From: Balneolaceae bacterium | Lineage (GTDB): Bacteria; Bacteroidota; Rhodothermia; Balneolales; Balneolaceae | DNA: 64,000 nucleotides | Reading direction: 5' to 3' | Assembly: GCA_007693745.1 (NCBI GenBank) | Contig: REDA01000054.1 | Location: 1 to 64,000 of the forward strand | In this document: one piece after another, positions 27,069 through 54,318 of the stretch | How positions within the stretch are numbered: position 1 is the first letter of the stretch | Layout of the letters: each line of letters starts with the position of its first letter | Program-made: the position numbers and the translations under genes | Notes under the pieces: generated by a model | Seen by the model: only the letters and a program-made list of their open reading frames with translations | Databases searched by the model: none | What the model was told of the DNA's origin: nothing

Positions 27069-27109
27069 GATCTGAAACAGATTGCCTGTTTGCGCATCCT
27101 GTTTTACCC

Positions 27110-36463: not shown

Positions 36464-37552
36464 CTACCTCCCCAGCTTCTCAACAACCTCCCGGGCTACC
36501 TGCATGCCAATGGCAATGCCCATGCCGCTGAGTCCGGCAACGCTCCATACCGTTTCACCTTGCCGGACGATTGCAGGCTCTTTATCCGGAGCCATGCCCA
36601 TGATGCCACTCCACTCTGTCTCAATCTCCCATCCGGCAGGCAGCTTCAGAACCTCATCGGCAAAATGAAGCAGATAATTTTTTATTACAGGATTCACACC
36701 AAACTCAGATGTGGTTTCCGCTTCACGGGATGCACTTCGTCCGCCTCCCAAAAGCAGCCGGTCACCAATATTACGGAAATAGACATAGCCTTCATTGAAG
36801 CTGAATGTCCCGTTCCAGGATAGTGATGGAATCTCTTTAGTCACAAAAACATACCCGCGCGCCGGTTTAACCTCCGTTTTCACCAGATCCGATAAAAACC
36901 CGTTGACAGCAATAACGGTTTTGTGCGGATTCAGGTTGAGACCGCCCCGAAATCTTACCTCGCCGGAAGAAACCGATTCCACCTCAGCACCCCAGAGTGT
37001 TCGCACTCCGGACTGCTGACACCGGTTGTGCAGAGATGCCATCAGTTTTCCGCTGTGCAATGCACCCTCAACTTTATTGAATATCGCCGGCAACTGTTCA
37101 TATGCTCCCTTACTGTACACATCCGGGATTCCCGTTATCTTTCCAAGATACTCATTCATTTCGGGCAGCGCGGAGCAACACCGTTCATAGAGTTCGGGAT
37201 CCGTGAAGATCTCCACTCCGCCGGTGTGCCGGTATCCTATTTCCTCATCCCCCATGGTATTCCGGAGAAGTTTCAGCCCCTCCCATCTGCGGGCAATCCT
37301 CCCCTGTACAGTCACTTTACCGGCTGTCTCCATGTCAGCCAGATGCTCAGAGACAGAGCCGATACAGGCAAACCCCGCATTTCGGGTACTGGCACCGTAA
37401 GGGCTGATCTGCCCCCGCTCAGCAATCCATACCGATTGATCCGGATACCGTTGTTTATAACATAAGGCCGTGGATGCACCAACGATCCCGCCCCCCACCA
37501 CCAGCAGATCCGGGGGTTGCAACCAGGATTCTTTTTCCCAGTGAGATTTCAT
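36464..37552 (-). CDS. DAO-family FAD-dependent oxidoreductase
   Basis: 362 residues. The Rossmann motif LLVVGGGIVGASTAL (17-31), then a NAGFACIG segment and a C-terminal GLSGMGIAIGMQVAREV, are typical of the D-amino-acid oxidase / glycine oxidase family. These oxidise amines or hydroxyacids with FAD. The exact substrate is unknown. There is no signal peptide, so it is cytoplasmic. Its ATG follows directly on a CCTCAA hexamer repeat that replaces a normal ribosome-binding site, which may affect its expression. Confidence 0.85.
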   Translation of the reverse strand: MKSHWEKESWLQPPDLLVVGGGIVGASTALCYKQRYPDQSVWIAERGQISPYGASTRNAGFACIGSVSEHLADMETAGKVTVQGRIARRWEGLKLLRNTMGDEEIGYRHTGGVEIFTDPELYERCCSALPEMNEYLGKITGIPDVYSKGAYEQLPAIFNKVEGALHSGKLMASLHNRCQQSGVRTLWGAEVESVSSGEVRFRGGLNLNPHKTVIAVNGFLSDLVKTEVKPARGYVFVTKEIPSLSWNGTFSFNEGYVYFRNIGDRLLLGGGRSASREAETTSEFGVNPVIKNYLLHFADEVLKLPAGWEIETEWSGIMGMAPDKEPAIVRQGETVWSVAGLSGMGIAIGMQVAREVVEKLGR

Positions 37553-37556
37553 GGTG

Positions 37557-37604
37557 TTGAGGTTAAGATTGAGGTTGAGGTTGAGGTTGAGGTTGAGGTT
37601 GAGG
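37557..37604. repeat. Hexanucleotide tandem repeat (TTGAGG)8 before a start codon
   Basis: Eight 6-base units: one perfect, one degenerate (TTAAGA), then six perfect TTGAGG in a row (37569-37604). Read on the transcribed minus strand it is CCTCAA repeated, ending 4 bases before the ATG of the DAO-family gene. The frame upstream is closed by a TAG with no start codon in between, so the repeat is 5' untranslated. Copy-number change would alter the leader, not the reading frame. Confidence 0.9.
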
Positions 37605-37651
37605 CCGCATTCACTCTGCTACGCTGCATGGGAATCGCTTCGCTCGGTGCA

Positions 37652-37671
37652 TCCCGACAGGTTTGTCGGGA
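37652..37671. other. Perfect 8-bp hairpin in gap between Gfo gene and DAO gene
   Basis: TCCCGACA (37652-37659), loop GGTT, TGTCGGGA (37664-37671). It has no T-tract on either side and sits in the 291-base repeat-rich gap. It could terminate the upstream Gfo/Idh gene weakly or mark an intergenic repeat. Confidence 0.6.
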
Positions 37672-37701
37672 CTTTCGCTGCGCTCCAGCTTTTGCGTTTT
37701 G

Positions 37702-37816
37702 CTGCGTGCAGTTCGCAGTCCCGAACCCTCGGGTCGATTTGCTGTGTTGATGCCAAAAAATGGTTGACGTTTTTAGTCACCTCCACTGCGTGCATTTCGC
37801 AGCCCAGAGCCTTCGG
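37702..37816. repeat. Imperfect 31-base direct duplication
   Basis: The segment at 37702-37732 begins CTGCGTGCAGTTCGCAG and ends CCTCGG. It recurs at 37786-37816 beginning CTGCGTGCATTTCGCAG and ending CTTCGG, with about six differences. Both units contain the short palindrome TGCG-N-CGCA. They are separated by 53 unrelated bases. This looks like decayed intergenic repeat material. Confidence 0.65.
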
Positions 37817-37843
37817 TGCAGCCGTCCCGTCACTTTGGAAACC

Positions 37844-39160
37844 TCAAATCCTCGGCTCCCACCCGGGCTCATAGTCACGCCTCCACATGCTCATCGCCTC
37901 AGAGTCTCCAATGATCCTTCCGGTTGAGGGATCGAGATTCAGAGATCGTCCCACATACTGAGAGATATTTCCCAAATGAAGAGCCATTACACTCTTTTGC
38001 CCCTCTTCTATGGATGAGTTTAATGCGGTCTGCTCACGGATCGCTCCGGCAAAATTGTGCACATGCAGATCCGTAAGACCACCCCCGCCCACTGTATCCA
38101 GCGGGTCCGATTCGTCAGATCGCATTTTCCGGCGAATCTCCTCATTATCCAGATTCCATGCAACATACCCGCTCCTGTCAATCATCATAGTTCCGTTGGT
38201 GCCGTGGATCAGGGATCCTCTGCCACGGTTCCAGAACGGAAAGCCGTTACAGCTCCTCCCCTCCCACTGGATACTTTTGCCCTCTGCAAAATCAAAATTC
38301 ACGTTTTGCGTGTCATAAAACTCCCAGTCATCCCTGAAGTGAAAGCGTCCTCCGTTGGATGCGATTTTATTCGGCATACCTACATCCAATGCCCATCTGC
38401 AGATGTCATACTCATGAGTTCCGTTGTTTAGTATCTCACCGGTACCCCATTTCCAGAACCAGTGCCAGTTGTAGTGGATCAGATTGTCACGGTAGGGTGT
38501 GCGGGGAGCGGGTCCCTGCCAGAGTTCGTAATCAAGCCATTCCGGAACCGGGGCAATGGAGCCGTTCCCAATAGAACCCCGAGTGTTGGCATAAAAACAT
38601 TTCCCGTAATAAACATCCCCGATAAGACCGTTGCGGATCTCCTGAATCGCCTCCATGGATTCGGGTGCCGAGCGTTGCTGATTCCCCATCTGCACCAGTT
38701 TACCGTATCGTTGCTGCGCTCTCACGATCAGTTCAGCCTCATAGGGATTGTGACTTCCCGGTTTTTCCACATACACATGTTTTCCGGCCTGAAGTGCCAT
38801 GATCGCAGCAGGGGTGTGCCAGTGATCCGGAGCTCCGATCACCAGGGCATCGATATCCGGATCCTCGAGAGCTCTCCTGAAGTCCGTTCCAACTTCAGGT
38901 CTTTTCCCCTGAATCTCCTGCACACCGGAAGCAAGCTCTTCCAGGGGGCGGTAATCCACATCGAAAATGGATTTCACCTCCGTGGCGTGAACACGGGCAA
39001 AGACATTTGCAAGATGGCCTGCGCGCCCGCGCCCTCCCATTACAGCCACTACCACCTTTTCATTGGCGGAAACAGCCCCTCTGGATAGCGAAAATGGCCC
39101 GGATAACCCGATGGCTGCGGTTGTAAGTGCTGAAGATTTTAAAAAAGTTTTACGGTCCAT
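37844..39160 (-). CDS. Exported Gfo/Idh/MocA family oxidoreductase (RK-type Tat-like signal)
   Basis: 438 residues. The N-terminus MDRKTFLKSSALTTAAIG resembles a Tat signal but has RK in place of RR. The dinucleotide fold starts KVVVAVMGGRGRAG (35-48), and the family catalytic lysine is K133 in VYVEKPGSH. The C-terminal domain has HDICRWALDVG-like HEYDICRWALDVG. These enzymes oxidise or reduce sugars and sugar acids with NAD(P). An exported member would need tightly bound cofactor, as in Zymomonas glucose-fructose oxidoreductase. It neighbours three more exported relatives around uxuA. Confidence 0.88.
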   Translation of the reverse strand: MDRKTFLKSSALTTAAIGLSGPFSLSRGAVSANEKVVVAVMGGRGRAGHLANVFARVHATEVKSIFDVDYRPLEELASGVQEIQGKRPEVGTDFRRALEDPDIDALVIGAPDHWHTPAAIMALQAGKHVYVEKPGSHNPYEAELIVRAQQRYGKLVQMGNQQRSAPESMEAIQEIRNGLIGDVYYGKCFYANTRGSIGNGSIAPVPEWLDYELWQGPAPRTPYRDNLIHYNWHWFWKWGTGEILNNGTHEYDICRWALDVGMPNKIASNGGRFHFRDDWEFYDTQNVNFDFAEGKSIQWEGRSCNGFPFWNRGRGSLIHGTNGTMMIDRSGYVAWNLDNEEIRRKMRSDESDPLDTVGGGGLTDLHVHNFAGAIREQTALNSSIEEGQKSVMALHLGNISQYVGRSLNLDPSTGRIIGDSEAMSMWRRDYEPGWEPRI

Positions 39161-39328
39161 GGATCCCTGTTTTTATGGTTATGGATTTGCAATCAATCCG
39201 ATAAGCTTTTAATATCATGATGGATCACAGAAGCTCCCCGGCAGCAGCATGCTATCTGCTTAAGCTTTCTGAAGAAACATCCACATCAGAACGAACATAG
39301 ATAAAAGCTAACATACATTCAATCAATA

Positions 39329-40762
39329 ATGACTCTGCCACCCGGATCTCTTCTCTTTTTTACGATCATCTTTACATCTCTTCTCACTGTATCATTTTCC
39401 GGCTGTACCTCTTCAGAAGAGAGCAGTAACCAAATCTCAGATGGAGCGGGTGAGATTCGCCTGATGACCCTGAATCCCGGTCACTTTCATGCAGCGCTGG
39501 TGCAGAAAAACGAACTGGAAGGAGTAAGCAGCAGGGTTCATATCTATTCTCCGGGCGGGGAGGATCTGGCTTTGCACATGCAGCGAATCAACGGCTTCAA
39601 CCAGCGGAATGAGGATCCCACAGAGTGGGAATCTGTCATTTATGAAGGCCACGATTATTTCAAAAAAATGCTTGAGGAGCAGCCGGGCAATGTTATGATT
39701 GTGGCGGGCAATAACCGCCTTAAAACAGATTATATCCTTCAGGCCGTGGATGAAGGAATCCATGTACTTTCTGACAAACCGATGGCAATCGACTCCGGCA
39801 ACTGGATACGGCTACGTGATGCATTCCGGATTGCCGGGGAGAGAGGGGTGCTTCTGTATGATATCATGACCGAACGATATGAGGTCACCTCACGAATACA
39901 GAGGATACTGGCTCAAAACAGAGAACTGTTCGGAGAACTGCAGACCGGCACTCCTGATGAACCGGCCGTTGTGAAACAGAGTGTGCATCATCTTTACAAA
40001 ATGGTGGCCGGAGCTCCGCTCAGACGTCCACAGTGGTATTTTGACACCCTGCAGCAAGGTGAGGGGATCGTGGATGTGACCACACATCTGGTGGATCTCT
40101 CGCTCTGGGGTACATTCCCGGACGAAGCGATCAGCTATGAGTCTGATGTCGAACTGATCCATGCCCGAAGATGGCCAACCATGCTTACAGAAGAACAGTT
40201 TGGCAGAATCACCGGGGCTTCCGCATTTCCGGATTTTCTGCAGGAGCAGTTGCTGGCCGACGGACGGCTTCCCTACTACAGTAACGGGGAAATCGGGTTT
40301 ACACTCCGTGAACACCATGTGAATGTCTCCGTAGAGTGGGCTTATGAAGCGCCACCGGGTGGTAATGATACACACTACAGCCTGATGCGCGGCACGCATT
40401 CCAACCTGGTGATCCGGCAGGGAGCCGATCAGAATTTCAGAAGTACGCTTTTTGTGGAAATGGCGGAAGGTACGGATCCGGTAAATCTTGAAAGGGCACT
40501 TGAAGCTTCGGTTGAAGAGCTGAGCGGTGAATTTCCCGGACTCTCTTACCTCAAAAACGAGTATGGATTCGAACTCATCATACCTGATGAATACTATCTG
40601 GGACATGAAGCGCATTTCGGAAAAGTGGCAGAAGCCTATTTCGGATATCTCAAAGAGGGACGGCTGCCACACTGGGAAATACCGAACATGATCACGAAAT
40701 ATTATATTACAACACAGGCTAGGGAACTGGCGATGCGGGCCGATTCAGCTTCCGATCTGTAA
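39329..40762 (+). CDS. Gfo/Idh/MocA-like lipoprotein with degenerate nucleotide site
   Basis: 477 residues. A lipoprotein signal with lipobox FSGC places the lipid at C26. The Rossmann start is IRLMTLNPGHFHAAL (43-57), which lacks the usual GxGxxG. The EKP motif is HVLSDKPMAID with D149 and K150. The second half matches the putative-oxidoreductase C-terminal type, by recognition of VVKQSVHHLYKMVAGAPLRRPQWYFD and GIVDVTTHLVDLSLWG. Export by Sec as a lipoprotein makes a pre-bound cofactor unlikely, so it may bind sugars without redox chemistry. It lies 148 bases upstream of uxuA on the same strand. Confidence 0.82.
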   Translation: MTLPPGSLLFFTIIFTSLLTVSFSGCTSSEESSNQISDGAGEIRLMTLNPGHFHAALVQKNELEGVSSRVHIYSPGGEDLALHMQRINGFNQRNEDPTEWESVIYEGHDYFKKMLEEQPGNVMIVAGNNRLKTDYILQAVDEGIHVLSDKPMAIDSGNWIRLRDAFRIAGERGVLLYDIMTERYEVTSRIQRILAQNRELFGELQTGTPDEPAVVKQSVHHLYKMVAGAPLRRPQWYFDTLQQGEGIVDVTTHLVDLSLWGTFPDEAISYESDVELIHARRWPTMLTEEQFGRITGASAFPDFLQEQLLADGRLPYYSNGEIGFTLREHHVNVSVEWAYEAPPGGNDTHYSLMRGTHSNLVIRQGADQNFRSTLFVEMAEGTDPVNLERALEASVEELSGEFPGLSYLKNEYGFELIIPDEYYLGHEAHFGKVAEAYFGYLKEGRLPHWEIPNMITKYYITTQARELAMRADSASDL

Positions 40763-40910
40763 CCGTTTCGGAAGAAGCAGAAACAATATTTATAACCAAG
40801 AATACCAGCCAGGAATTGCCAGAACAGAGTCCTCACGTCAGGCCGCAGGCATTCTGCCAAAAATTTGCATCCAAGTTCACTCACACATTTAATCCGAATC
40901 CGCTGAAACG

Positions 40911-42122
40911 TTGAAACAGAACCCGATTCCTTATCTTGAAAAAACCTGGCGCTGGTTTGGCCCCTCCGACCCGGTCAGCCTCTCTGAAATCAGACAGACT
41001 GGTGCTACAGGCATCGTCACTGCACTACATCACATTCCCAACGGGGAGATCTGGGAATCTCACGAAATTGAGAAACGGAAAAGGGAGATAGAAGCTGCAG
41101 GACTCCGCTGGTCGGTCGTGGAAAGTGTGCCGGTGCATGAAGAGATAAAACGCCGTGCCGGCAGATTCAGAACCTATATCCAAAACTATCAGCAGACCCT
41201 CCGCAATCTTGCTGAATGCGATGTTCCTGTGGTCTGCTACAATTTCATGCCGGTGCTCGACTGGACCCGGACAGAACTTCATTTTCCGCTTGAAAGTGGT
41301 GCATCGGCACTGCGGTTTGATGAAATTGATCTGGCTCTTTTCGACCTGTTTTTGCTGAAACGAACTGGAGCTGAGACCGATTACAGTAACGATGTAATCT
41401 CTGCTGCTGAAGGAAAAAAGAGTCGGATCACAGATGAGGAGAAAGAGCAGCTCACCGCAACGATTCTGGCCGGACTTCCCGGAGCTGAAGAGGGATATAC
41501 CACCAATCAGTTCCTGCAGGCACTTTCTGAGTATGACGGGATTACCGATAATGACCTGCGAACCCATCTGAAGGAGTTCCTTTTGGAGATTGCACCAGTT
41601 GCTGAAGAGTGCGGAGTCAGGCTGGCGATTCATCCGGACGACCCACCCTTTCCGCTGTTTGGGCTTCCAAGGGTGGTGAGTACCGAATCAGATGCCAGAG
41701 AGCTTCTGGATTCGGTAAATCTTCAGGCCAACGGCCTCTGTTTCTGCAGCGGGTCTTATGGTGCCCGGCCGGATAATGATCTGCCGGGGATGATCCGGCG
41801 ACTTGGTGAACGTATTCACTTTATTCACCTCAGAAATGTACAGTTGGAAGAGGGTCGATCCTTTCATGAAGCTGCACATCTGGTAGGCAGTGTGGGGATG
41901 GCAGATGTGATGCAGGCCATTGTTACGGAGCAGAAGCGAAGGGTAGAATCGGGACGCAGTGACAGTGCCATTCCCATGAGGCCGGATCACGGCCACCGCA
42001 TGCTTGATGATTTCAGCAGAGAATCCAATCCCGGCTACTCCCTGATTGGCCGCATGCGGGGACTTGCAGAGTTAAGAGGCCTTGAGATGGGAATTAGGAG
42101 TCTAATGACAAATTCCCATTAG
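40911..42122 (+). CDS. uxuA: Mannonate dehydratase
   Basis: 403 residues with a TTG start. It dehydrates D-mannonate to 2-keto-3-deoxy-D-gluconate. The UxuA N-terminal pattern TWRWFGPSDPVSLSEIRQTG and ATGIVTALHHIPNGEIW is unmistakable. CYNFMPVLDWTRTEL, the metal-site LAIHPDDPPFPLFGLPR, FCSGSYGARPDNDL and the terminal MRPDHGHRMLDD are also present. It is the only plus-strand gene of the uronate pathway here, separated from the uxaC-kdgK-eda operon by the exported oxidoreductases. Confidence 0.97.
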   Translation: MKQNPIPYLEKTWRWFGPSDPVSLSEIRQTGATGIVTALHHIPNGEIWESHEIEKRKREIEAAGLRWSVVESVPVHEEIKRRAGRFRTYIQNYQQTLRNLAECDVPVVCYNFMPVLDWTRTELHFPLESGASALRFDEIDLALFDLFLLKRTGAETDYSNDVISAAEGKKSRITDEEKEQLTATILAGLPGAEEGYTTNQFLQALSEYDGITDNDLRTHLKEFLLEIAPVAEECGVRLAIHPDDPPFPLFGLPRVVSTESDARELLDSVNLQANGLCFCSGSYGARPDNDLPGMIRRLGERIHFIHLRNVQLEEGRSFHEAAHLVGSVGMADVMQAIVTEQKRRVESGRSDSAIPMRPDHGHRMLDDFSRESNPGYSLIGRMRGLAELRGLEMGIRSLMTNSH

Positions 42123-42187
42123 TGTTTTCAGGCGTTTGTCTGAGCTCAATTCACAGTAATATCCGCAGAGATCGTTTATGAGAAATT

Positions 42188-43561
42188 CTAAACTTCCAAA
42201 CCCCGGGCCGGATGAGGCTGTATCGTAGTCAGATCGCCAATGTTTACCGGTCGGTTACCGGAATCGATGCTCTTGCGTGCTGCAACACCCACCAGAATCG
42301 ACATTACTCCATCACGAACGCCCGCCTGCTGACGCAGCGGGTCGGGACGGTCCGGATCTCTGAAAAGCTGATCGGTCATGACCGGATCTCCACCCCAGTG
42401 GCCTCCGGAGCCGTGTTCTACAAAGAACTGCTCCTCCTCACGGTCTGAGTAGCGCCGGTTGGGCATGAAGGTGATCTCTTCACCAAACTTTCGCGGCCAG
42501 CCGCCTGCCCTCACTTCAAGGCGTCCCTCTGTACCGTTCACCACCAGTTTATACCCTTCAAACCCGGTATCAGCGGTAAGGCTGTAGGTCATGATCGCGC
42601 CATTGGCATATTTAACAACGGCCGTATGTTTTTCCCAGATATCGATCTCCTCACGGAATACGCAGTTATCGCGTATATAACCGTCGTACTGCTCATTATC
42701 TGTGTAAAGTGTGCGCAGATGCTCATTTTCAAGAATATTCCAGTGGTAGGGACACTGCGAGGTAAAGTTGCAGTCACGGCAGTTGTTTCCGCGAAACGGC
42801 CCCTTTCTCCCGAAACGCTCCAGAGCACCCCAGGCAGTCACCTCTTCCGGATCGGAGTTGATCCACCAGTTGGCCATGTCGAAATGGTGGGTTGATTTGT
42901 GTACCCAAAGCGATCCGCCATACTGCCGCTGTCCATGCCAGCGCTGCATGTAACGCATCAGATGGCTGTGCGAAATGTGGTAATGAAAATCGACGGAGCG
43001 GATATCACCCACATAACCCTCCATAATCAGCTCTTTGATTTTGGCCCGGTATGGGGGATAACGATAGTTGAAGGTGACGATCACCTTTCTGCCATACTCT
43101 TTTTCCGCATTGATTATCGCCTGAGCTTTCTGCTCATCAATCGTTAGCGGCTTCTCCGTGATGATGTCACAGCCATGCCGCATCCCTGTTATGATATGCT
43201 CATGATGCACATCATCGCGTGATGTCACAATCAGAACCTCCGGTTTTTGCGCGGCAAGCATCTCATCCAGATCCGTATAGGCAGGAAGGTTTCCTCCAAT
43301 ATACTCCCTTGCTACCTGCAGGCGGCCCGGATTGATATCACACAGTGAAACCAGCTCAACGGTGTCGGAATAGTTCGCACGCAGACTTCGCCCAAACATG
43401 CTGACTCCCCGAACTCCGGTACCCACCAGCGCCATTCTGCGCTTTTCCTTAAAAAATGACCCCGCACCGGCCAGGGCAGGCGCTGCCACGAGTGTTCCAC
43501 CGGCGGCTGCACCGGCCGTTTTAATAAATTCTCTTCGCGTGTAGAATGGTTTCGTTGTCAT
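42188..43561 (-). CDS. Tat-exported Gfo/Idh/MocA oxidoreductase with Cys cluster
   Basis: 457 residues. A classical Tat signal TRREFIKTAG (8-17) is followed by an Ala-rich hydrophobic stretch with cleavage near AGAG. The cofactor-binding loop ALVGTGVRG (44-52) and EKP motif with K137 are intact. The active-site helix is HKSTHHFDMANWW (221-233). Four cysteines, C261, C264, C270 (NCRDCNFTSQCPYHW) and C300, are spaced as a possible metal site. It probably folds with NAD(P) in the cytoplasm and is exported by Tat. Substrate unknown, presumably a sugar or uronic acid given the neighbours. Confidence 0.9.
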   Translation of the reverse strand: MTTKPFYTRREFIKTAGAAAGGTLVAAPALAGAGSFFKEKRRMALVGTGVRGVSMFGRSLRANYSDTVELVSLCDINPGRLQVAREYIGGNLPAYTDLDEMLAAQKPEVLIVTSRDDVHHEHIITGMRHGCDIITEKPLTIDEQKAQAIINAEKEYGRKVIVTFNYRYPPYRAKIKELIMEGYVGDIRSVDFHYHISHSHLMRYMQRWHGQRQYGGSLWVHKSTHHFDMANWWINSDPEEVTAWGALERFGRKGPFRGNNCRDCNFTSQCPYHWNILENEHLRTLYTDNEQYDGYIRDNCVFREEIDIWEKHTAVVKYANGAIMTYSLTADTGFEGYKLVVNGTEGRLEVRAGGWPRKFGEEITFMPNRRYSDREEEQFFVEHGSGGHWGGDPVMTDQLFRDPDRPDPLRQQAGVRDGVMSILVGVAARKSIDSGNRPVNIGDLTTIQPHPARGLEV

Positions 43562-43767
43562 GGCGTTTCACCTTTGGTCCGTTGGAAATAAAACTAAACT
43601 GTGATTCAGATCCGGTCATCTGATCCGTATGTCATCAATGCACATTCAAAAAATCATTGGGTCAATCCGCTATGATTTTCACCAATTTTTAGTAAAATCA
43701 GTGAATTTGTAAGGTAAATCCGACAGCGAGATCCCGCTTCCATTACTGCCTGGCGGGCAGAACCACT

Positions 43768-45045
43768 CTATCCGCTCACTCTGTACTTCTCCGGCAGGGT
43801 AACATCCCGTCCGGTTTTGGTCGCTTCTTCAGCCAGCAATGTCCAGGTCGATGCGTTGTACCCCTCCAGAGTCAGCTTTTCAGGCGCTGTCCCTTCACGT
43901 ATAAAATTGATAAAGCCTTCCATGTAGAGCAGGGTATCATTCAGCTCATAATCGGGAGAGATATATCTGCCCCCAAGGCGAATCGGGGCATCCGGGATCC
44001 ACGTGGCTCCTCCGATGGGGATGGTTTCATTGGCTCCTTCCTCTATATCCCGGATCAGACTCTGAACAGCAGGCGGATCGGCCGGAAACTCCTCGTACTG
44101 CATATTGGACTCCAGCTCGATGGTTCCGTCGTTCCCAAGAACCTGCACCTGCATGCCGTTATGCTTATTACTCGTAATGCAGTCGTAGCTGAAGTGAATA
44201 TCTTCCGGATATTTAAATACCAGTGAGAAGTTATCCCACACTTCCCTTCCGTCCTTGAAATGGTTGATGCTTCCGCTTCCCATAACGGAGAGTGGCTGAG
44301 AACCCAGAACCCAGTTCGCCACCTGGAAATGATGGGAGCCGAGCTCAGAGATCATCCCGGCCGAATAGTCATCGTAAAAACGCCAGTTTCGCTGCCGGTC
44401 GAGGGGTGTGCCTCTTCCGTCAGTATCTCTGTAGAACACCCAGTCTGTATTCCTGTGCCACCACCCCCTCATCATCGTTACCGGACCAATATCTCCTCTT
44501 TGAATCCGTTGCATCGACTCCAGATAGACCGGGTTGAACAGGCGCTGGTGACCAATCAGCATCACCTTTCCGCTCTCCTTCCATGCGTCGTACATCGCTT
44601 TTACTTCATCCAGGGTACGGGCCATTGCCTTTTCACAAAACACGTGAATTCCGGCCTGTAAGCAATCAATGGTTTGCTGCGCATGTTCATGAAGAGGTGT
44701 CGCAATCACAACACCATCCAGTTCCACATTCTCTATCATCTCCCTGTAGTCCAGGAAAGCCTCCGCTTCTCCTCCGGTCAGGTCGATCGCCCGCTCATAG
44801 TGAGGCAGATAGTTGTCACAAACTGCAACGATTTCAATGTTCATGTGCTGCTGCAATTCGCGCAGATTCCAGTAGAGAGCCCTCCCTCTTGATCCCACTC
44901 CGATCACCCCGATTCTGACGCGGTCGCCGGCCCCTTTGCCGAAAGATGCGGGCTGATTAAATACTGAAAACCAGGGCATGGTTGTGGTGAGAAGAGTCGT
45001 TCCCGCCAGCGATGCGGTCAGCTCAAGAAAATTCCTTCGGTTCAT
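43768..45045 (-). CDS. Tat-exported Gfo/Idh/MocA oxidoreductase
   Basis: 425 residues. The Tat signal NRRNFLELTASLAG (2-15) leads into a hydrophobic region to about residue 27. The Rossmann motif is VRIGVIGVGSRGRAL (43-57), and the EK pair (E138, K139) stands in HVFCEKAMART, with Ala replacing the usual Pro. The active-site region GMISELGSHHFQVANWVLG resembles sugar-dehydrogenase relatives. It is the third minus-strand exported member and is separated from the second by 206 bases that probably carry a promoter. Confidence 0.89.
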   Translation of the reverse strand: MNRRNFLELTASLAGTTLLTTTMPWFSVFNQPASFGKGAGDRVRIGVIGVGSRGRALYWNLRELQQHMNIEIVAVCDNYLPHYERAIDLTGGEAEAFLDYREMIENVELDGVVIATPLHEHAQQTIDCLQAGIHVFCEKAMARTLDEVKAMYDAWKESGKVMLIGHQRLFNPVYLESMQRIQRGDIGPVTMMRGWWHRNTDWVFYRDTDGRGTPLDRQRNWRFYDDYSAGMISELGSHHFQVANWVLGSQPLSVMGSGSINHFKDGREVWDNFSLVFKYPEDIHFSYDCITSNKHNGMQVQVLGNDGTIELESNMQYEEFPADPPAVQSLIRDIEEGANETIPIGGATWIPDAPIRLGGRYISPDYELNDTLLYMEGFINFIREGTAPEKLTLEGYNASTWTLLAEEATKTGRDVTLPEKYRVSG

Positions 45046-45168
45046 AATCTGATTGATAAAATTAAGCTATCTCTCAATCTACTGTGAGCTGACAAAAAAA
45101 ACCAATGAATCTGACAAAAATTACTAAATCAGAAAAGCGAAAATGGTCCGGGAGATGCACGTCATTTT

Positions 45169-46071
45169 TCAGTAAGATGTCACAACCACTTCCGGTGTCC
45201 AGTAATCTGCCCGGACAATATCAACCTCCGGGTACGCCTCTTTCAGCGAACGGATCTTTTCACTCTCCGAGACCAGACAAGCCGTTGAGAGCATCTCCGC
45301 AAGCAGGGGAGATTCGGCATGGACACTCACTGCAGACAGGTTTTCCCATGGTTTGCCGCTATGAGGGTCGATGATATGGCGGTGGTTGACCAGTCTGCCG
45401 CTGTCATTCACCCGGAAGTTGGAGGAGGTGGAGACCGAACCACCGCATAGGCGAAACTCATGCAGGGTTTTTCCGGGATCGAGATAGTTGTTCATTCCTA
45501 TCTTCCATGCACCCCCTGCCGGATGTTCACCTAAGGCCAGAACAGAGCTTTCACCGAAACTGATAAATGCTGATTTCGCTTCGGTGTTCAGTATCATCTC
45601 TTTGATTTTCTCCAGAGCGTACCCCTTCCCAAGGCCGCCAAAGTCAATCTCCATCCCGTTACGGGTAAATGCAGCCGTTCGCTGATCCGGATCGAGCAGC
45701 AGATGCTGAAACCCGCAGCGATCCTTCACCTGCTGAAAATCCTCATCCGCTTCACTCTCTTTATCTTTCCAGTACTCCATGAGCGGGCGGCAGGTGAGGT
45801 CGAAGGCTCCGTCTGTTTTCTCCCAGATATATCTGCACGCCTGCAGCAGATCAAACAGTTCTTCATCCGGCTCAACGGTTTCTCCTGCAGCTGCAGCATT
45901 AAGCCTGCTCACCTCACTCTCCGGCAGAAAACGGCTCATCTTCTGCTCAATCCTGTTCACTTCACCCCTGAGATGGTAAAAGAGCCGTTCCGCTTTTCCC
46001 TCTTCCAGATCCGGAAGAAGGGCGTAAAACCGGGTGCCCATCGCAAAAAAACGGTTTTGATACATATCCAT
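45169..46071 (-). CDS. apbE: FAD:protein FMN transferase (ApbE family)
   Basis: 300 residues. ApbE links FMN through a phosphoester to Ser/Thr of target proteins. Family motifs are GTRFYALL near residue 12, MSRFLPESEVSRLN, DFGGLGKGYALEKI near 148-161 and the magnesium/FAD segment HRHIIDPHSGKPWENL. No signal peptide or lipobox is visible, unlike most Gram-negative ApbE. It therefore appears cytoplasmic. No obvious flavinylated target such as RnfG or NqrC is encoded in the window. It lies 33 bases downstream of the DUF6807 gene on the same strand. Confidence 0.93.
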   Translation of the reverse strand: MDMYQNRFFAMGTRFYALLPDLEEGKAERLFYHLRGEVNRIEQKMSRFLPESEVSRLNAAAAGETVEPDEELFDLLQACRYIWEKTDGAFDLTCRPLMEYWKDKESEADEDFQQVKDRCGFQHLLLDPDQRTAAFTRNGMEIDFGGLGKGYALEKIKEMILNTEAKSAFISFGESSVLALGEHPAGGAWKIGMNNYLDPGKTLHEFRLCGGSVSTSSNFRVNDSGRLVNHRHIIDPHSGKPWENLSAVSVHAESPLLAEMLSTACLVSESEKIRSLKEAYPEVDIVRADYWTPEVVVTSY

Positions 46072-46104
46072 ACAATGCGGAGCAAACCCGGTCAGAGCTG
46101 GCAG

Positions 46105-47289
46105 TTATCTTGAGGCGTATTGCTGATACTTCGCTTCAATCTCCTCAACAGCGGGGGCTTCTCCCTCCACAATCCACAGCCTGTATCTTAGTACAAAAGG
46201 AGCTCCCTCAGAAAAATAGTGCGGAAAAAACTCCCCGAAACGACCATAGAGCCGCTCTGACATCTCAGCTACAGACCTCCCGGGATTGGCCGGATTTACC
46301 ATATAGACCACTGTGTACTCATTCTCACCGATTGTATAATTAAAGGCGTTCCAGGGTAATCCGATCCGGTCTTCCTCACCCAGTTCCACATCTCCCGGGA
46401 TGTCAGACAGGGCCTCCGGCCGGATAAAACGGCTTACTCCCGGATTATCAGCTACATACTGAGCAGCACGAAACTGCATCCCTGCATGCTGAAGATCACC
46501 GTCGAGATTCACCGGACCGGCAATGGCATACATATTGGTGTGAAAGTCGATCACCATACTGCCATCCGGCTCCCTGTAAACACGGATGTCCCGTTCCTCC
46601 TCTAGTATAATCCGGTCGTTGGGATCCTTCCAGTGAATCTCCGCCACATGACCACCAAAAACGGGTCCGCTGAATTCAGTAACAAAATCGATATGTTCTG
46701 TCCTTTCGCCATTATTGGCGTGCCACATATCATACACATCATCATAGATTTCCACCCGGCTGTAACCGTAGAAAATTCCTCGGTGGTGAGAGAAGAGTCC
46801 GCCTGCACCTTTTGTAATCAGTTCTCCGGAAGCAGGCCCAAATACATGATGAAACGGTTTTTTCGTCTCTTCTTTGTTTTCAGGATCAAAAACCGGGTAT
46901 TCGTACTGAATCAGCGGGTGGTCACCCAAAACAAGCTGAGCAGACTGATCTCCGGCACTCTGCCAGCTGTACACCTGCTCTGCGCAGGTCTGATCATGCA
47001 GCACACTGTATTGCACCGTCTCACCTTCAGCCTGTGTGGCAAACCACCAGATTCTGGCACGCGTCGGAGTGAGGGGTTCAGCCTGAGCCGGAATGCGAAC
47101 ATCCCCCGCCTCAAGACACAACCCTCCACTAAGGCCTGCAATCGGTACATTCACTGAAACAAGATCGTGGCTGAGGTTCCCGTTCCTTGCTGTAAATTCA
47201 AAGGTTTCATACTCAACTCCGGCACATCCGGCCGTGATGACAAGAATGAGAAAAAAAGAAGAAAGTGTTCTCATGATTAGATATTTCAT
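46105..47289 (-). CDS. DUF6807 family lipoprotein (so-called PmoA family)
   Basis: 394 residues. A signal peptide with lipobox ITAGC puts the lipid at C22. The family motif KGAGGLFSHHRGIFYGYS near residue 165 and HADNP-like ADNPGVSRF, plus GLPWNAFNYTIGENEYTVVYM, identify the DUF6807 group, often listed as methane oxygenase PmoA without good reason. The fold is probably a sugar-binding beta sandwich. It is frequently seen with Gfo/Idh/MocA proteins, as here. The 219-base gap to uxaC contains ACCCAT/ATGGGT (47369-47391), a weak minus-strand terminator candidate. Confidence 0.82.
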   Translation of the reverse strand: MKYLIMRTLSSFFLILVITAGCAGVEYETFEFTARNGNLSHDLVSVNVPIAGLSGGLCLEAGDVRIPAQAEPLTPTRARIWWFATQAEGETVQYSVLHDQTCAEQVYSWQSAGDQSAQLVLGDHPLIQYEYPVFDPENKEETKKPFHHVFGPASGELITKGAGGLFSHHRGIFYGYSRVEIYDDVYDMWHANNGERTEHIDFVTEFSGPVFGGHVAEIHWKDPNDRIILEEERDIRVYREPDGSMVIDFHTNMYAIAGPVNLDGDLQHAGMQFRAAQYVADNPGVSRFIRPEALSDIPGDVELGEEDRIGLPWNAFNYTIGENEYTVVYMVNPANPGRSVAEMSERLYGRFGEFFPHYFSEGAPFVLRYRLWIVEGEAPAVEEIEAKYQQYASR

Positions 47290-47508: not shown

Positions 47509-48927
47509 TCAATGGTTTTGCGAATAGAGAAAATAGCCTTTTGCATTGCCATAGCATATGCTCTCCACCAGGTCTGAAATGAGTTCGGGTTCGTCAGGCA
47601 GCACCCCTCTATCCATATCCCGGCCAAGCAGGTTGCAGAGAATTCTGCGGAAGTAGTGATGACGGGAGAATGAAAGAAAGCTGCGCGAATCGGTGGTCAT
47701 GCCGATAAACCTGCTGAGTATTCCCATATTTGAAAGCGATTCGATCTGTTTTTCGATTCCATCTTTCTGATCGAGAAACCACCAGGGAGGCCCGTGCTGC
47801 AACTTGCCGGGAGTGGTTCCATCCTGAAAGTTACCGATCATCGTCCCGATCAGCTCATTGTCGCCGGGGTGGATATTGTAAAGCACTGTCTTCGGCAGGA
47901 TGTTGTCCCGGTCGAGCCGGTCGAGCAGGCGGGCAAGCGGCCGCGCGATCTCCCCGTCGCCCATGGAATCAAAACCGGCATCGGGACCCAGTTTTGCCAG
48001 CATCCGGCTGTTATTATTTCTCTGAGCGCCGATATGCAGCTGCAACACCCACCCCTTTTGATGGTTCATCACTCCGCAGCGGTACAAAAATGCCGATTTA
48101 AACCGGGCCGACTCTTTTCGGGTCAGTTTCTTTCCGCTTCGCGCTTTGTCAAATGTTTTTTCCACCTGCTGATCACTGTACGGTGCCGAATATGGCTCTT
48201 CGATTCCGTGGTCAGATGCCCTGCAACCCAGTTCATGAAATGCATCATGACGCTGCTGAAGTGCCTCCCAAAAGCTGTTCAGACTGCGTATTTCGACACC
48301 AGACACTTTCTCAAGTTTACTGACCCACTCGATAAACGCATCTCCTTTTTCGATATTCATACCTGTATCCGGACGGAAGGTGGGGACCATCCGTAACGGC
48401 GCGCTGCTTTCTCCGGAAAAAGCACGGTGGTGTTGCAGATCTGAAACGGGATCATCGGTCGTAGCCACTATTTCCACACGGTTTCTTTGCAACAGGGATC
48501 TGGCCGAAAAATCCTTGTCTTGCAGCATCTCATTGCATTCATCCCATATTCGGCCGGCTGTAACCCCGTTTAGCAGCCGGTCACTGATTCCAAAGGGATC
48601 TGCCAGCTCCATGTGAGTCCAGTGAAAAAGCGGATTCCGGAGTGTTTGGGGCACGGTTTCTGCCCAGGCCATAAATTTTTCCCGGTCGGATGCTTTTCCG
48701 GTAATCCGTTCTTCATCAATTCCGCAGGTACGCATGGCGCGCCACTTGTAATGGTCGCCCTTCAGCCAGATTTCGGTGAGGTTTTCAAATTTTTTATCTG
48801 CGGCAATCTCATCCGGTGGCAGGTGGTTGTGGTAGTCGATCACCGGAAGGTCTTTTGCCACGCTGTGGTAGAGCCGGCGGGCTTTATCTCCCTCCAGCAG
48901 AAAATCATCATGGATAAATGATTTCAT
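47509..48927 (-). CDS. uxaC: Uronate isomerase
   Basis: 472 residues, the typical length. It isomerises D-glucuronate to D-fructuronate and D-galacturonate to D-tagaturonate. The amidohydrolase-type metal start DYHNHLPPDEIAADKKFENL is followed by WLKGDHYKWRAMRTCGI, VEIVATTDDP, VLQLHIGAQRNNNSRM and the closing TTDSRSFLSFSRHHYFRRILC. It is the last gene of the minus-strand uronate operon and overlaps kdgK by four bases. Confidence 0.97.
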   Translation of the reverse strand: MKSFIHDDFLLEGDKARRLYHSVAKDLPVIDYHNHLPPDEIAADKKFENLTEIWLKGDHYKWRAMRTCGIDEERITGKASDREKFMAWAETVPQTLRNPLFHWTHMELADPFGISDRLLNGVTAGRIWDECNEMLQDKDFSARSLLQRNRVEIVATTDDPVSDLQHHRAFSGESSAPLRMVPTFRPDTGMNIEKGDAFIEWVSKLEKVSGVEIRSLNSFWEALQQRHDAFHELGCRASDHGIEEPYSAPYSDQQVEKTFDKARSGKKLTRKESARFKSAFLYRCGVMNHQKGWVLQLHIGAQRNNNSRMLAKLGPDAGFDSMGDGEIARPLARLLDRLDRDNILPKTVLYNIHPGDNELIGTMIGNFQDGTTPGKLQHGPPWWFLDQKDGIEKQIESLSNMGILSRFIGMTTDSRSFLSFSRHHYFRRILCNLLGRDMDRGVLPDEPELISDLVESICYGNAKGYFLYSQNH

Positions 48928-49955
48928 CGCTCCACCCTCCCCGATCCGCCACTCTTTATCAGTTTTTCCACCTCGCCTCTGCTTACAAGATTGAAATCGC
49001 CCGGAATGGAATGCTTCAGGCAGGATGCGGCTACAGCAAACTCCAGTGCATCACGGCTATGATCCATGCACAGAAGACCGTAGATCAGTCCGGCAGCGAA
49101 CGAATCGCCTCCCCCCACACGATCCACGATGTCGATCTCATATCTTCGCGAACGGAATGGGGTGCTGCAGGATTTGTCATCATGCAGCAAGGCACTCCAG
49201 CCGTTGCGGCTCGCTGAAAAACTTTCCCTGAGAGTGATCGCCACTGCCTTGAAATCATACTCCTTTTTCAATTCCATGGCGAGATGGGCATATCCTTTCT
49301 CATCCAGATGAGCGTCCTCCACATCTGTTGTACCGGCCGTAAATCCCAGACATTTTTCCGCATCTTCTTCGTTGGCGATACATACATCCACATAACTCAT
49401 CAACGGTTTCATCACCTTCCGGGCCTGCTCTTCGGTCCACAGTTTTGCCCGGAAATTAAGATCGCAGCTCACGGTAACTCCCGCCTTTTTGGCTGCCCGG
49501 CAGGCCTCCTCAAGAACAGCGGCGGGATCCGGACCCAGCGCGGGTGTTATTCCAGTCCAGTGGAACCACTCTTTTCCTTCAAATATGTTTTCCCAATCGA
49601 CCATACCACTTTTTATCTCTGTGACAGAAGAATCCGCACGGTCGTAAATAACCCTTGAAGGCCGCTGGCTGGCGCCGGTTTCCAGAAAGTAGATCCCCAG
49701 CCTGTCGCCACCCCTTACGATGTGTTCCGTATTTACCCCATACCGGCGAACCGACTGCAGGGCTGCCTCTCCGATTTCATGCTCCGGCAGCCGGGTGACA
49801 AACCAGCTGTTCAGCCCGTAACCGGCCAGGGAAACCGCTACATTTGCTTCTCCCCCACCGTAGCTCACATCGAATTGGGAAGCCTGCACAAACCGCTCAA
49901 AACCGGGTGTGGAAAGCCGCAACATAATTTCACCAAATGTGACAACATTTTTCAT
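48924..49955 (-). CDS. kdgK: 2-keto-3-deoxygluconate kinase (PfkB family)
   Basis: 343 residues. It phosphorylates KDG to KDPG. PfkB marks are FGEIMLRLSTPGFERFVQAS with YGGGEANVAVSLAGYG near residue 32, and the C-terminal catalytic loop DRVGGGDSFAAGLIYG with its Asp base. The KDG specificity is inferred from the neighbours eda and uxaC and from the KdgK-like N-terminus. It is 116 bases after eda and overlaps uxaC by four bases. Confidence 0.93.
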   Translation of the reverse strand: MKNVVTFGEIMLRLSTPGFERFVQASQFDVSYGGGEANVAVSLAGYGLNSWFVTRLPEHEIGEAALQSVRRYGVNTEHIVRGGDRLGIYFLETGASQRPSRVIYDRADSSVTEIKSGMVDWENIFEGKEWFHWTGITPALGPDPAAVLEEACRAAKKAGVTVSCDLNFRAKLWTEEQARKVMKPLMSYVDVCIANEEDAEKCLGFTAGTTDVEDAHLDEKGYAHLAMELKKEYDFKAVAITLRESFSASRNGWSALLHDDKSCSTPFRSRRYEIDIVDRVGGGDSFAAGLIYGLLCMDHSRDALEFAVAASCLKHSIPGDFNLVSRGEVEKLIKSGGSGRVER

Positions 49956-50071
49956 AATCAGAATTCTATTTTATCTCGATAATTTTCACCATTCAACTCA
50001 AAACCGGGCAGTAAATCAAAAACCCGTAACTCTCTTCGATCAGCGACTCCACCCGGTCCACTCTTGCCATT

Positions 50072-50707
50072 TTACCCCTTCAGTCCGCTCATCAATAGCC
50101 GCGCCTTTTTTTCGATCGCTTTATAATCCCTGTTCTTTAAGTCCTCTGCGGAAACGAGTGCGCTGCCCACTCCCACTGCACAGGCTCCGGCCCTGATCCA
50201 TTCCGCTCCATTGGTCAGGGTCACTCCGCCGGTTGGCATTAGTTTCAAATCGGGCATGGGTGCAAGCACAGCTTTAAAAAACTCCATCCCCGTAATATTG
50301 GCCGGAAACACCTTTACAATATCGGATCCCAGCTGCCGGGCATAGTCGATTTCGGTAGGGGTAAAGGCGCCCGCCATCATCACCTTGCTTTGCAATACCG
50401 TCTGGGCAATTACATCCGGTTTAATCACCGGACTTACTACAAATTCTGCGCCGGCACGAATAGCGGCAACAGCTGTCTTTGAATCCATCACAGAGCCGAC
50501 TCCGATGATCATCTCCTCAGGAAATGATTGGGATGCTTCCTTTATCAGATCGACAGCATTTGGAGTGGTCATGGTCAATTCCAAAACCATCACCCCTCCC
50601 TTGTAGAGAGCTTCTGCAACGGGGAAAAAGAGATCTGGATCCGGCAAGCGAAGAACAGCAATTGCCTTTTCGCGTTCAATTGCAGTTAAAATAGAGGTTC
50701 GGTTCAT
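50072..50707 (-). CDS. eda: 2-dehydro-3-deoxyphosphogluconate aldolase
   Basis: 211 residues. It cleaves KDPG to pyruvate and glyceraldehyde 3-phosphate and ends the uronate route. The Schiff-base lysine is in DIVKVFPANI and the catalytic glutamate in VLELTMTTPNA. IIGVGSVMDSKTA and LMPTGGVTLTNG phosphate-binding loops are also present. It starts 9 bases after the SDR gene. Confidence 0.96.
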   Translation of the reverse strand: MNRTSILTAIEREKAIAVLRLPDPDLFFPVAEALYKGGVMVLELTMTTPNAVDLIKEASQSFPEEMIIGVGSVMDSKTAVAAIRAGAEFVVSPVIKPDVIAQTVLQSKVMMAGAFTPTEIDYARQLGSDIVKVFPANITGMEFFKAVLAPMPDLKLMPTGGVTLTNGAEWIRAGACAVGVGSALVSAEDLKNRDYKAIEKKARLLMSGLKG

Positions 50708-50716
50708 GATTAATGA

Positions 50717-51499
50717 TCAGATTGTCATTGAAGTAAAGCCTCCGTCAACCGGGATAACGGCTCCGGTCACGAAAGAAGATGCGGCATTCGAGGCGAGCCA
50801 GATCAACGCTCCCGAAAGTTCTGAGGGCTCACCAAAACGTTGCATCGGTGTGTGCCGGAAGATGGATTCAGTGCGCTCCTGGGTCAGGATTTTCCTGTTC
50901 TGTTCAGCCGGAAAAAAACCGGGAAGCAGCGCATTGACACGAATCCCGTCCGGAGCAAATTCGCGCGCAAGAAAACGGGTCATATTGTTCACTCCCGCTT
51001 TGGAGATGCTGTAGGTGAATACTTTGGAAAGTGGTATTTCTGAAGAGGCGGAGGAGATATTGATAATGCTGCCCTTAATATTTTTTTCGATCATCATAGC
51101 TGCTGCGATTCTGCTGGCATAAAAGACTCCTTTCAGGTTGATATCCAGAATGCGGTCCCATTCCTCTTCATCAATTTCCATCACCGGTGTAACCGAGTTC
51201 ACTCCCGGGGCGTTGACCAGAATATCCACTCCGCCAAACTCCGATTCGATCTCTTCAAATGCTTTCTTCAGGGAGGTTTCGTCGCGGGTGTCGGCGTGAC
51301 ACACCAGTGAGCGCCTCCCCAGTTTTTCGACCTCTTTCTGCTGTGACTGTGCACCGCTCTGATTACTGCTGTAGAAAATGGCTACGTTGGCACCGGCAGC
51401 CGCAAGAGCTTTTACCATTTCACCACCCAGTACACCGCTGCCTCCGATTACTGCTGCCGTTTTACCCTTAAGTGAAAATAGATCCATTAACTGATTCAT
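50717..51499 (-). CDS. SDR oxidoreductase, probable D-fructuronate reductase (D-mannonate forming)
   Basis: 260 residues, classical short-chain dehydrogenase. The cofactor loop is AVIGGSGVLGGEM (16-28). NAPGVN replaces the usual NNAG, and the catalytic Ser plus YSISK set is in SSASSEIPLSKVFTYSISKAG. No UxuB-type mannitol-dehydrogenase-like enzyme is present in the locus, while this gene sits between uxaE and eda with a four-base overlap to uxaE. It therefore most likely performs the fructuronate to mannonate step (inference). A 2-keto-3-deoxygluconate or gluconate dehydrogenase is the alternative. Confidence 0.85.
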   Translation of the reverse strand: MNQLMDLFSLKGKTAAVIGGSGVLGGEMVKALAAAGANVAIFYSSNQSGAQSQQKEVEKLGRRSLVCHADTRDETSLKKAFEEIESEFGGVDILVNAPGVNSVTPVMEIDEEEWDRILDINLKGVFYASRIAAAMMIEKNIKGSIINISSASSEIPLSKVFTYSISKAGVNNMTRFLAREFAPDGIRVNALLPGFFPAEQNRKILTQERTESIFRHTPMQRFGEPSELSGALIWLASNAASSFVTGAVIPVDGGFTSMTI

Positions 51500-52995: not shown

Positions 52996-53019
52996 GGAAA
53001 AAGATAATTAGACATAAGA

Positions 53020-54318
53020 TCAGTACCCAAAGAGTCGGGGGAGAAACATGGTAAGCCCCTCAAAATAGGTGACCAGCAGCAGTGAAATCACCATAGCGAT
53101 GAATAGTGGTATCAGCGGGCGGATCACCTGCGTAATGGAAAGGTTGGCAATGCCGCAACCCACAAAAAGAACGCTGCCTACCGGTGGGGTACAGAGCCCG
53201 ACACTCAGATTCAGCACCATCACAATTCCGAAATGAACGGGATCCATCCCCAGTTCCACCACCAGAGGAAGGAAAATAGGGGTAAAGATCAGTACCGCCG
53301 GAGTGATATCCATAAAAATCCCGACGGTCAGCAGAATGACATTGATGATGATAAGAATCACGAACGGATTGTCACTCAGAGCGATCAGTGTTTCGGAGAT
53401 ATAGACCGGAATATTTTCGTACGACATGATCCAGGACATCGCCATGGAAGTGGCGATCAGCAGTGCAACGATTGCTGTCGTATTGCAACTGGTGAGAAAA
53501 ACCTGTTTGAGTTGTTTCAGGCTCATGCTTCTGTAGGCAACAGTGAGCAAAAGGGCATAGACAACCGCAATGGCGGAAGCTTCCGTAGCTGTAAAAATAC
53601 CCGCCACAATCCCGCCGATTACAAGGAAGATGAGAAAAAGGCTTGGAATGGCCTCAAGAAATTTCCGGATAGCGATGCGAAGAGGCACCCGTTCAGAGAC
53701 AGGATACTTTCGCTTGAAAGCCACATAACCGGAAACGGCCATCAGGGAGAAACCCACAAGAATTCCGGGAATATATCCGGCCAGAAACAGGGCAGCAATC
53801 GATGCCCCGCCACTCGCCAGAGAATAGACAATCAGAATATTGCTGGGCGGTATAATCAATCCGGTAGTTGAGGAGGTAATGTTCAAAGCCGCACTGAACT
53901 CTTTGTCGTACCCTTCCTTTTCCATTCGTGGCCCCATAAATCCGCCGATAGCCGAGGCTGTTGCCACTGCAGAACCGGAGATCGACCCAAACAGCATCGC
54001 CGCCACCACATGTACGTAGGCGAGTCCGCCGGGCAGCATACCCACAAGTGATTTGGCAAAATCAATAAGCCGTTTGGCAATCCCTCCCTGATTCATAATC
54101 TGACCGGCCAGTATGAAAAACGGGATTGCCAGCAGGGCGAAACTGTCGAGACCGGTGGCCATTCGCTGCGCCACGGTGGTCACAGCCGGATCAAACGGGA
54201 TACTCACCAGCATGGTGAGCAGGGTAGCCACACCGATGCAGAAGGCGATCGGTACACCGATCATCAGAAGGAAGAAAAAGCTAAGAACCAGTACCAGAAT
54301 ACCTGTTATTTCCATCAC
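53020..54318 (-). CDS. dctM: TRAP transporter large permease (DctM)
   Basis: 432 residues with about twelve hydrophobic helices. DctM is the Na+-coupled transport subunit of TRAP systems. Typical motifs are PIAFCIGVATLL, PFFILAGQIMNQGGIAKRLI and SGSAVATASAIGGFMGP, with FMDITPAVLIFTPIFLPL and VLNLSVGLCTPPVGSVLFVGCGIA near the C-terminus. It overlaps dctQ by four bases. Uronate as the substrate is inferred from the following catabolic genes. Confidence 0.95.
   Translation of the reverse strand: MMEITGILVLVLSFFFLLMIGVPIAFCIGVATLLTMLVSIPFDPAVTTVAQRMATGLDSFALLAIPFFILAGQIMNQGGIAKRLIDFAKSLVGMLPGGLAYVHVVAAMLFGSISGSAVATASAIGGFMGPRMEKEGYDKEFSAALNITSSTTGLIIPPSNILIVYSLASGGASIAALFLAGYIPGILVGFSLMAVSGYVAFKRKYPVSERVPLRIAIRKFLEAIPSLFLIFLVIGGIVAGIFTATEASAIAVVYALLLTVAYRSMSLKQLKQVFLTSCNTTAIVALLIATSMAMSWIMSYENIPVYISETLIALSDNPFVILIIINVILLTVGIFMDITPAVLIFTPIFLPLVVELGMDPVHFGIVMVLNLSVGLCTPPVGSVLFVGCGIANLSITQVIRPLIPLFIAMVISLLLVTYFEGLTMFLPRLFGY

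Follow-up and report, generated by a model that had tools for sequence, protein, structure and literature searches.

Gene content of the locus

The window analysed here is a stretch of 64,000 nucleotides from a Balneolaceae genome (contig REDA01000054.1), in which a hexuronate operon lies beside a cluster of genes for Gfo/Idh/MocA oxidoreductases (Gfo proteins) and a gene for an ApbE-family flavin transferase. Many Gfo/Idh/MocA dehydrogenases with a role in glycan breakdown are exported by Bacteroidota, Planctomycetota and related bacteria, although nicotinamide adenine dinucleotide (phosphate), NAD(P), is not known to be available in free form outside the cytoplasm. ApbE is a flavin adenine dinucleotide (FAD):protein flavin mononucleotide (FMN) transferase; its known targets are NqrB/NqrC, RnfG, FMN-binding domains, DUF2271 and DUF3570. 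Sequence comparisons suggest that one of the Gfo proteins, GfoD, probably carries a covalent flavin, predicted to be FMN at Thr348. Such a flavin would explain how an NAD-type dehydrogenase passes electrons outside the cytoplasm without free NAD.

GfoD (43768-45045, minus strand) is a Gfo/Idh/MocA oxidoreductase exported by the twin-arginine translocation (Tat) pathway and the predicted substrate of the adjoining ApbE; its Tat-type signal reads NRRNFLE (signal peptides were assessed by eye and by hydropathy). It matches PF01408 with 77 bits (cut-off 24), and PF22725 and PF02894 above cut-off. The neighbouring ApbE gene (45169-46071, minus strand) encodes a diverged, signal-less protein that matches PF02424 with 185 bits against a cut-off of 25.6, and solved ApbE structures with E-values down to 1.8e-25. 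At higher coordinates lie a DUF6807 lipoprotein (46105-47289, minus strand; PF14100) and the hexuronate operon (47509-55818, minus strand), in which NCBIfam and Pfam recognise uxaC, kdgK, eda, a short-chain dehydrogenase/reductase (SDR) resembling mannonate oxidoreductase, uxaE (PF16257, 510 bits) and the tripartite ATP-independent periplasmic (TRAP) transporter genes dctM-dctQ-dctP. On the other side of GfoD lie GfoC (42188-43561, minus strand), a second Tat-exported Gfo/Idh/MocA oxidoreductase by Pfam; the mannonate dehydratase UxuA (40911-42122, plus strand), which scores 544 bits with TIGR00695 (cut-off 199.55) and is above the cut-off of PRK03906; the lipoprotein GfoB (39329-40762, plus strand; PF16490 and PF01408); the Tat-type exported GfoA (37844-39160, minus strand; PF01408 with a PF19051 C-terminus); and a DAO-type FAD oxidoreductase (36464-37552, minus strand; PF01266), a neighbour syntenic within the genus to which we assign no role. 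The open reading frames (ORFs) and their Pfam and NCBIfam matches thus agree with the original prediction, which had placed four Gfo/Idh/MocA genes, ApbE, DUF6807, DAO and uxuA beside the hexuronate genes.

There are 22 Gfo-type genes in this 2.87-Mb genome, and the four found within 7 kb therefore form a real cluster. The genome holds two ApbEs and, elsewhere, 7 DUF1080 3-keto-glycoside hydrolases. No lyase or hydrolase was seen among the window ORFs that were read, in a search that was not exhaustive.

Pairing of ApbE with GfoD

The locus was compared with related genomes, mostly metagenome-assembled genomes of Balneolaceae together with the isolate Rhodohalobacter sulfatireducens WB101, in which the ApbE-GfoD pair is present. 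Upstream sequence of 900 nt or more was available for 57 GfoD-type genes, and 53 of them have an ApbE gene directly upstream on the same strand. The pair is found in Balneolaceae, Rhodothermia, Bacteroidia, Sphingomonas, Planctomycetota and Omnitrophota, usually accompanied by a GfoA-like gene and often by a DUF1080 3-keto-glycoside hydrolase. Within the genome of the window just one of the 22 Gfo genes adjoins an ApbE.

Across the loci of the genus, GfoA, GfoB, GfoC, DUF6807, uxuA and the uronate operon are all variable, while ApbE and GfoD stay together. In three genomes (L057-L059) nothing is left between the flanking genes except a cytoplasmic Gfo (termed c2), ApbE and GfoD. Farther afield, Sphingomonas xinjiangensis has GfoA-ApbE-GfoD at 42, 34 and 41% identity with uxuA nearby, Planctomycetota and Omnitrophota have ApbE-Gfo pairs, and Rhodothermia have the order Gfo1-ApbE-Gfo2. 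Three plasmid records add DUF1080-Gfo1-ApbE-Gfo2-GH92 (Persicobacter psychrovividus), GH43-Gfo2-hypothetical-Gfo1-DUF1080-ApbE-GH115 (Bacteroides finegoldii) and Gfo2-ApbE (Spirosoma oryzicola).

Some gene orders differ from that of the window. The orthologous loci L046-L060 have c2 before ApbE as well as a second, distant DUF6807 (c9), both missing from the window. In six Rhodothermia genomes (L130-L134, L138) a membrane protein of about 675 residues with 4Fe-4S/CCG domains (HdrD-like; Pfam on one of them) is encoded directly downstream of Gfo2 on the same strand, which fits a coupling to the quinone pool; no equivalent of it was identified in the window.

A conserved loop in GfoD and its canonical counterpart

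The AlphaFold2 model of GfoD matches Gfo structures. The dinucleotide loop (G49, G51 and G54 of GxGxxG) and the catalytic Lys and His (E138-K139, H238) are invariant in 12 orthologs. A further conserved element is a loop in the C-terminal domain, I342-PIGGAT-W349 (codons 43999-44022, minus strand, with the predicted attachment site T348 at 44002-44004), which the ortholog alignment shows to be near-invariant in the subfamily. This loop has a predicted local confidence (pLDDT) below 50 in a model with an overall value of 83; it is conserved in sequence yet disordered. In a wider alignment almost every ApbE-paired sequence has Ser or Thr at the T348 column (IPIGGAT/S, GGST, ANAT, ADAT, AGPS, AGTS, GGSS), with SGKT in deep branches, whose alignment is less secure. 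In the Rhodothermia branch with Gfo1-ApbE-Gfo2, Gfo2 has often lost the catalytic Lys of the EK motif, so the Gfo2 members need not all work alike.

The published ApbE flavinylation motif is D-x-x-[S/T]-G-A-[S/T] (PMC12052999). A sister clade of Gfo proteins from Bacteroidia and other Balneolaceae, monophyletic with a support of 100/100, has D-G-V-[ST]-G-A-[ST] at the column of GfoD T348, an exact match. The motif occurs in 15 of 198 non-redundant Gfo-type ORFs; each of the 15 belongs to the sister clade and has the motif at the T348 column. The sixteenth member of the clade reads DGVAGAT, while Spirosoma Gfo2 (DGVTGAT) is additional to the 15.

The sister-clade Gfo proteins are mostly without an adjoining ApbE. 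ApbE is present in all 16 genomes, with one or more per genome having a signal-like N-terminus. These ApbEs, 25 in total, belong without exception to the canonical G-G[DE]/TSG type, with none of the SS type described below. In the three cases in which a canonical-loop Gfo does adjoin an ApbE (L210, L213 and Spirosoma), that ApbE is ordinary and signal-bearing. Where the loop is degenerate, in contrast, the ApbE is diverged, of the SS type and mostly signal-less; Persicobacter and Bacteroides finegoldii follow this pattern too. Thus loop type and ApbE type change together, and it is this correspondence above all that points to the loop Ser/Thr as the residue modified by ApbE.

Other candidate targets fared less well. 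The TGSS/TGAT segment of Rhodothermia Gfo1 (VTGSSVNEQGL) lacks an Asp upstream and does not recur in other Gfo1 proteins. ApbE-GfoD is retained at some loci without DUF6807 and at some without c2, and the lack of any flavinylation motif outside the sister clade among the 198 ORFs scanned also counts against c2. The DAO gene adjoins GfoD rather than ApbE and is not present in all loci.

The Gfo-associated ApbE

The ApbE of the locus has no signal peptide, carries GESS in place of G-GD and has lost the Tyr of TSGxY. These changes are typical of Gfo-associated ApbEs, which compared with ordinary ones show G[ETDN]S[ST] for G-GD (the SS type), loss of the Tyr after TSG and, nearly always, no signal. 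The catalytic triad of Vibrio cholerae ApbE consists of Asp285, Ser241 and His257 (PMC12052999). The locus ApbE has His232 and a Ser in an STSS segment, with the Asp replaced by Glu259; some ordinary Bacteroidota ApbEs are also without this Asp. Most Gfo-associated ApbEs keep the catalytic His and the Ser-containing segment, and the metal-site Asp is Glu in the GfoD clade. FMN transfer is a predicted activity of this protein.

In the ApbE tree, paired and unpaired proteins are strongly clustered, with 2 changes against 16 in shuffles. The Gfo-paired ApbEs are not recovered as a single supported clade; a single origin appears in only 14% of bootstraps and is therefore not claimed. The second ApbE of the genome (G000:C3:10493-11344) is of the ordinary type (GGD/TSGD) and is not paired with GfoD; a Gfo gene lies about 2 kb from it, on the other strand. 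Another possible context for SS-type ApbEs is seen at loci L157 and L161, where one adjoins a gene with a PMT_2 domain (mannosyltransferase-like) and the Gfo genes are about 5 kb off.

Proposed mechanism and alternative explanations

We propose that NAD(P) is bound in the Rossmann domain of GfoD, and that FMN would be held covalently on Thr348 in a mobile loop of the C-terminal domain. The diverged cytoplasmic ApbE would transfer FMN from FAD to Thr348 of folded GfoD; since GfoD carries a Tat signal, this modification would precede export, and the Tat system would then export the folded, FMN-loaded protein. In the periplasm GfoD and its partner GfoA might oxidise a uronate-containing glycoside, with the tethered FMN re-oxidising the trapped NAD(P)H and electrons passing to a putative membrane acceptor. 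DUF6807 may act on the resulting oxidised or unsaturated product, and the freed uronate would enter through the TRAP transporter and be degraded by the UxaC-UxaE-SDR-UxuA-KdgK-Eda route.

Several observations weigh against this proposal. The GfoD loop itself does not match the canonical motif: it keeps only G-A-T, has no Asp, and has Gly for the first Ser/Thr. Equivalence of the columns across an indel depends on the alignment, on which two MAFFT runs agree, and because the 15 motif matches belong to one clade, with sequences within clades related by kinship, they are not 15 independent events. Four of the 57 GfoD-type genes with upstream sequence have no adjoining ApbE, and the window showed no DUF1080. 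Finally, the loss of the GD and Tyr features of ApbE, with Glu for the catalytic Asp in the GfoD clade, means that the donor could differ from FMN.

The Ser/Thr loop might instead be a substrate-binding or subunit-contact loop, with ApbE serving another flavoprotein and the Gfo proteins being redox-neutral enzymes with tightly held NAD(P), in the manner of glucose-fructose oxidoreductase (GFOR), as the original prediction held. Loops at this position of Gfo proteins can contribute to substrate binding, the departure of the GfoD loop from the canonical motif is in keeping with such a role, and GFOR is a Tat-exported, NADP-retaining relative, albeit with weak similarity here (43 bits). Nevertheless, we regard this explanation as unlikely, since it leaves aside both the exact motif at the T348 column of the sister clade, found nowhere else among the Gfo-type ORFs, and an ApbE that adjoins GfoD-type genes in several phyla and whose type is tracked by that of the loop.

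A second alternative takes the altered ApbE residues at face value: the enzyme may attach a different nucleotide to GfoD, for example nicotinamide mononucleotide (NMN) from NAD or another flavin, or may be a chaperone or cofactor-loading factor only. That its partner is an NAD(P)-binding protein would suit this idea, but most of these ApbEs retain the catalytic His and Ser, and the sister Gfo proteins combine an ordinary flavinylation motif with ordinary ApbEs, which makes FMN the parsimonious ancestral state; we consider it improbable. The more specific version, in which a Gfo-specific ApbE with a changed donor fixes a non-FMN nucleotide (e.g., NMN from NAD) on Thr348 and so yields an exported dehydrogenase with a covalent nicotinamide or other cofactor, appears slightly more improbable again. 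That the pairing is an accident of operon history in an ordinary uronate locus with generic oxidoreductases is very unlikely: Gfo genes are indeed numerous and close relatives share local synteny, but the pair recurs in uronate, fucose, GH92, GH115/GH43 and hexosamine contexts across phyla and persists where other genes have been lost.

Partners of the ApbE-GfoD pair

Covalent flavinylation of GfoD remains our preferred explanation. GfoA shares 43-48% identity with several Gfo1 proteins that adjoin ApbE, Gfo2 and DUF1080, which suggests that together with GfoD it makes up a Gfo1-Gfo2 module. GfoA scores 124 bits with the model of the BT_2158 glycoside 3-dehydrogenase (NCBIfam NF058561), far below the cut-off of 750, and seems distantly related to enzymes of this type.

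The original prediction had given each Gfo protein an export signal and the Tat-exported ones a bound cofactor. The signals are of Tat type in GfoA (DRKTFLK, with RK in the window and DRR in relatives), GfoC (TRREFIK) and GfoD. GfoB, by contrast, is a Sec-type lipoprotein (lipobox SFSGC) with LNPGHFHAA instead of a GxGxxG loop and a partial PF01408 match starting at residue 111; it looks cofactor-free, and the need for a bound cofactor does not apply to it. This PF16490 lipoprotein is possibly a degenerate Gfo with a non-redox use. GfoC is found in part of the genus and is a conserved but dispensable neighbour. The emphasis on four equivalent NAD(P)-bound enzymes is not supported; ApbE-GfoD (with GfoA) stands out as the conserved unit, which points to covalent flavin and electron export.

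DUF6807 (lipobox ITAGC) scores 123 bits with PF14100, above the gathering threshold of 27. Its AlphaFold2 model (pLDDT 87) has a galactose-mutarotase-like supersandwich fold whose best structural match is a PL26 rhamnogalacturonan lyase (Z 18.0, 305 residues, 7% identity). Fold alone gives no function, but the likeness to PL26 makes a role on uronate glycosides possible.

Link to uronate catabolism

The expectation that GfoD and uronate genes would co-occur in relatives was confirmed for UxuA, both in the family (17/19 vs 20/73 genomes, p = 1.1e-6) and in the genus (16/18 vs 1/10, p = 7e-5). Together with the distant kinship of GfoA to glycoside 3-dehydrogenase-type enzymes, and with relatives of GfoA that adjoin DUF1080 elsewhere, this upholds the idea of extracytoplasmic oxidoreductases tied to uronate catabolism. 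The module as such is not specific for uronates, however: its relatives stand beside fucose, mannan, hexosamine and xylan genes. Because other modules adjoin fucose catabolism (L063, L064), GH92, hexosaminidase or sulfatase genes, uronate use is best seen as a local specialisation. In B. finegoldii the module lies next to GH115, a family known to include alpha-glucuronidases. A uronate-containing glycoside is a tentative candidate for the GfoD substrate.

The presence of DUF1080 in sister modules suggests 3-keto-glycoside chemistry; in the window module its place is occupied by DUF6807. BT2157 is cited as a 3-ketotrehalose hydrolase in PMC9007349.

Two further contexts are apparent from relatives. 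In L063 and L064, of the same genus, a second and distant ApbE-Gfo pair lies beside what translations suggest is an L-fucose catabolic set (transporter, mutarotase, fuconate dehydratase-like protein, amidohydrolase and SDR). In L062, from a different genus, GfoD lies between KdgK, Eda, UxuA and TRAP genes and a cluster of sulfatases and formylglycine-generating enzyme (FGE)-sulfatase genes, which hints at sulfated uronate glycans.

Relation to known systems

The locus resembles known ApbE systems in its ApbE fold, apparently in most catalytic residues, in the predicted transfer to a Ser/Thr of an exported redox protein encoded next door and, through the sister clade, in the exact target motif. 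It differs in the predicted target, a Gfo/Idh/MocA NAD(P)-dehydrogenase, in an ApbE that is signal-less with altered conserved sites, and in a degenerate target motif. We know of no ApbE partner or flavinylation loop for Zymomonas GFOR, which GfoD resembles as a Tat-exported family member expected to keep its dinucleotide bound, but which, unlike GfoD, is redox-neutral. A cytoplasmic ApbE of Klebsiella acts on a soluble fumarate reductase (PMC12052999) and, like the locus ApbE, is without signal peptide and dedicated to one enzyme; its product stays in the cytoplasm, whereas GfoD carries a Tat signal. With the BT2156-BT2160-type 3-keto-glycoside pathway (BT_2158 glycoside 3-dehydrogenase and DUF1080 hydrolase) the module shares exported Gfo proteins, the distant kinship of GfoA/Gfo1 to BT_2158 and, in related operons, frequent DUF1080 genes, but it has in addition ApbE and a Gfo2 predicted to be flavinylated, and in the window DUF6807 instead of DUF1080. 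The metagenomic glucuronide-3-dehydrogenase P2B11 (PDB 8tdi) has a Gfo fold, is a structural match to the GfoD model and acts on a uronate-glycoside, though it is only about 19% identical to GfoD.

ApbE, Gfo proteins and DUF1080 pathways are all known, but a flavinylated Gfo or a link between ApbE and Gfo was not found in the open-access literature; this does not prove priority, as subscription papers lay outside the search. The largest flavinylation survey removed ApbEs without a predicted signal peptide (PMC8238504), and a flavinylated Gfo could therefore have been missed. If correct, covalent attachment of a flavin ahead of Tat export would provide one large Gfo subfamily with a built-in electron outlet and would tie oxidative glycan cleavage to respiration, with a bearing on how exported Gfo enzymes turn over. 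ApbE would also gain a new class of targets and a new subfamily whose target loop differs, which would be of use in protein flavin-tagging.

Other features of the window

A thiamine pyrophosphate (TPP) riboswitch (26982-27081, plus strand, 68 bits) immediately precedes a TonB-dependent receptor gene (27140-29608), which suggests a thiamine-regulated outer membrane transporter. At 8781-13204 (plus strand), translations indicate a MATE-type exporter, a type III polyketide synthase-like protein, a methyltransferase and a UbiH-like FAD monooxygenase in a row, possibly an alkylresorcinol/quinone-type biosynthetic cluster.

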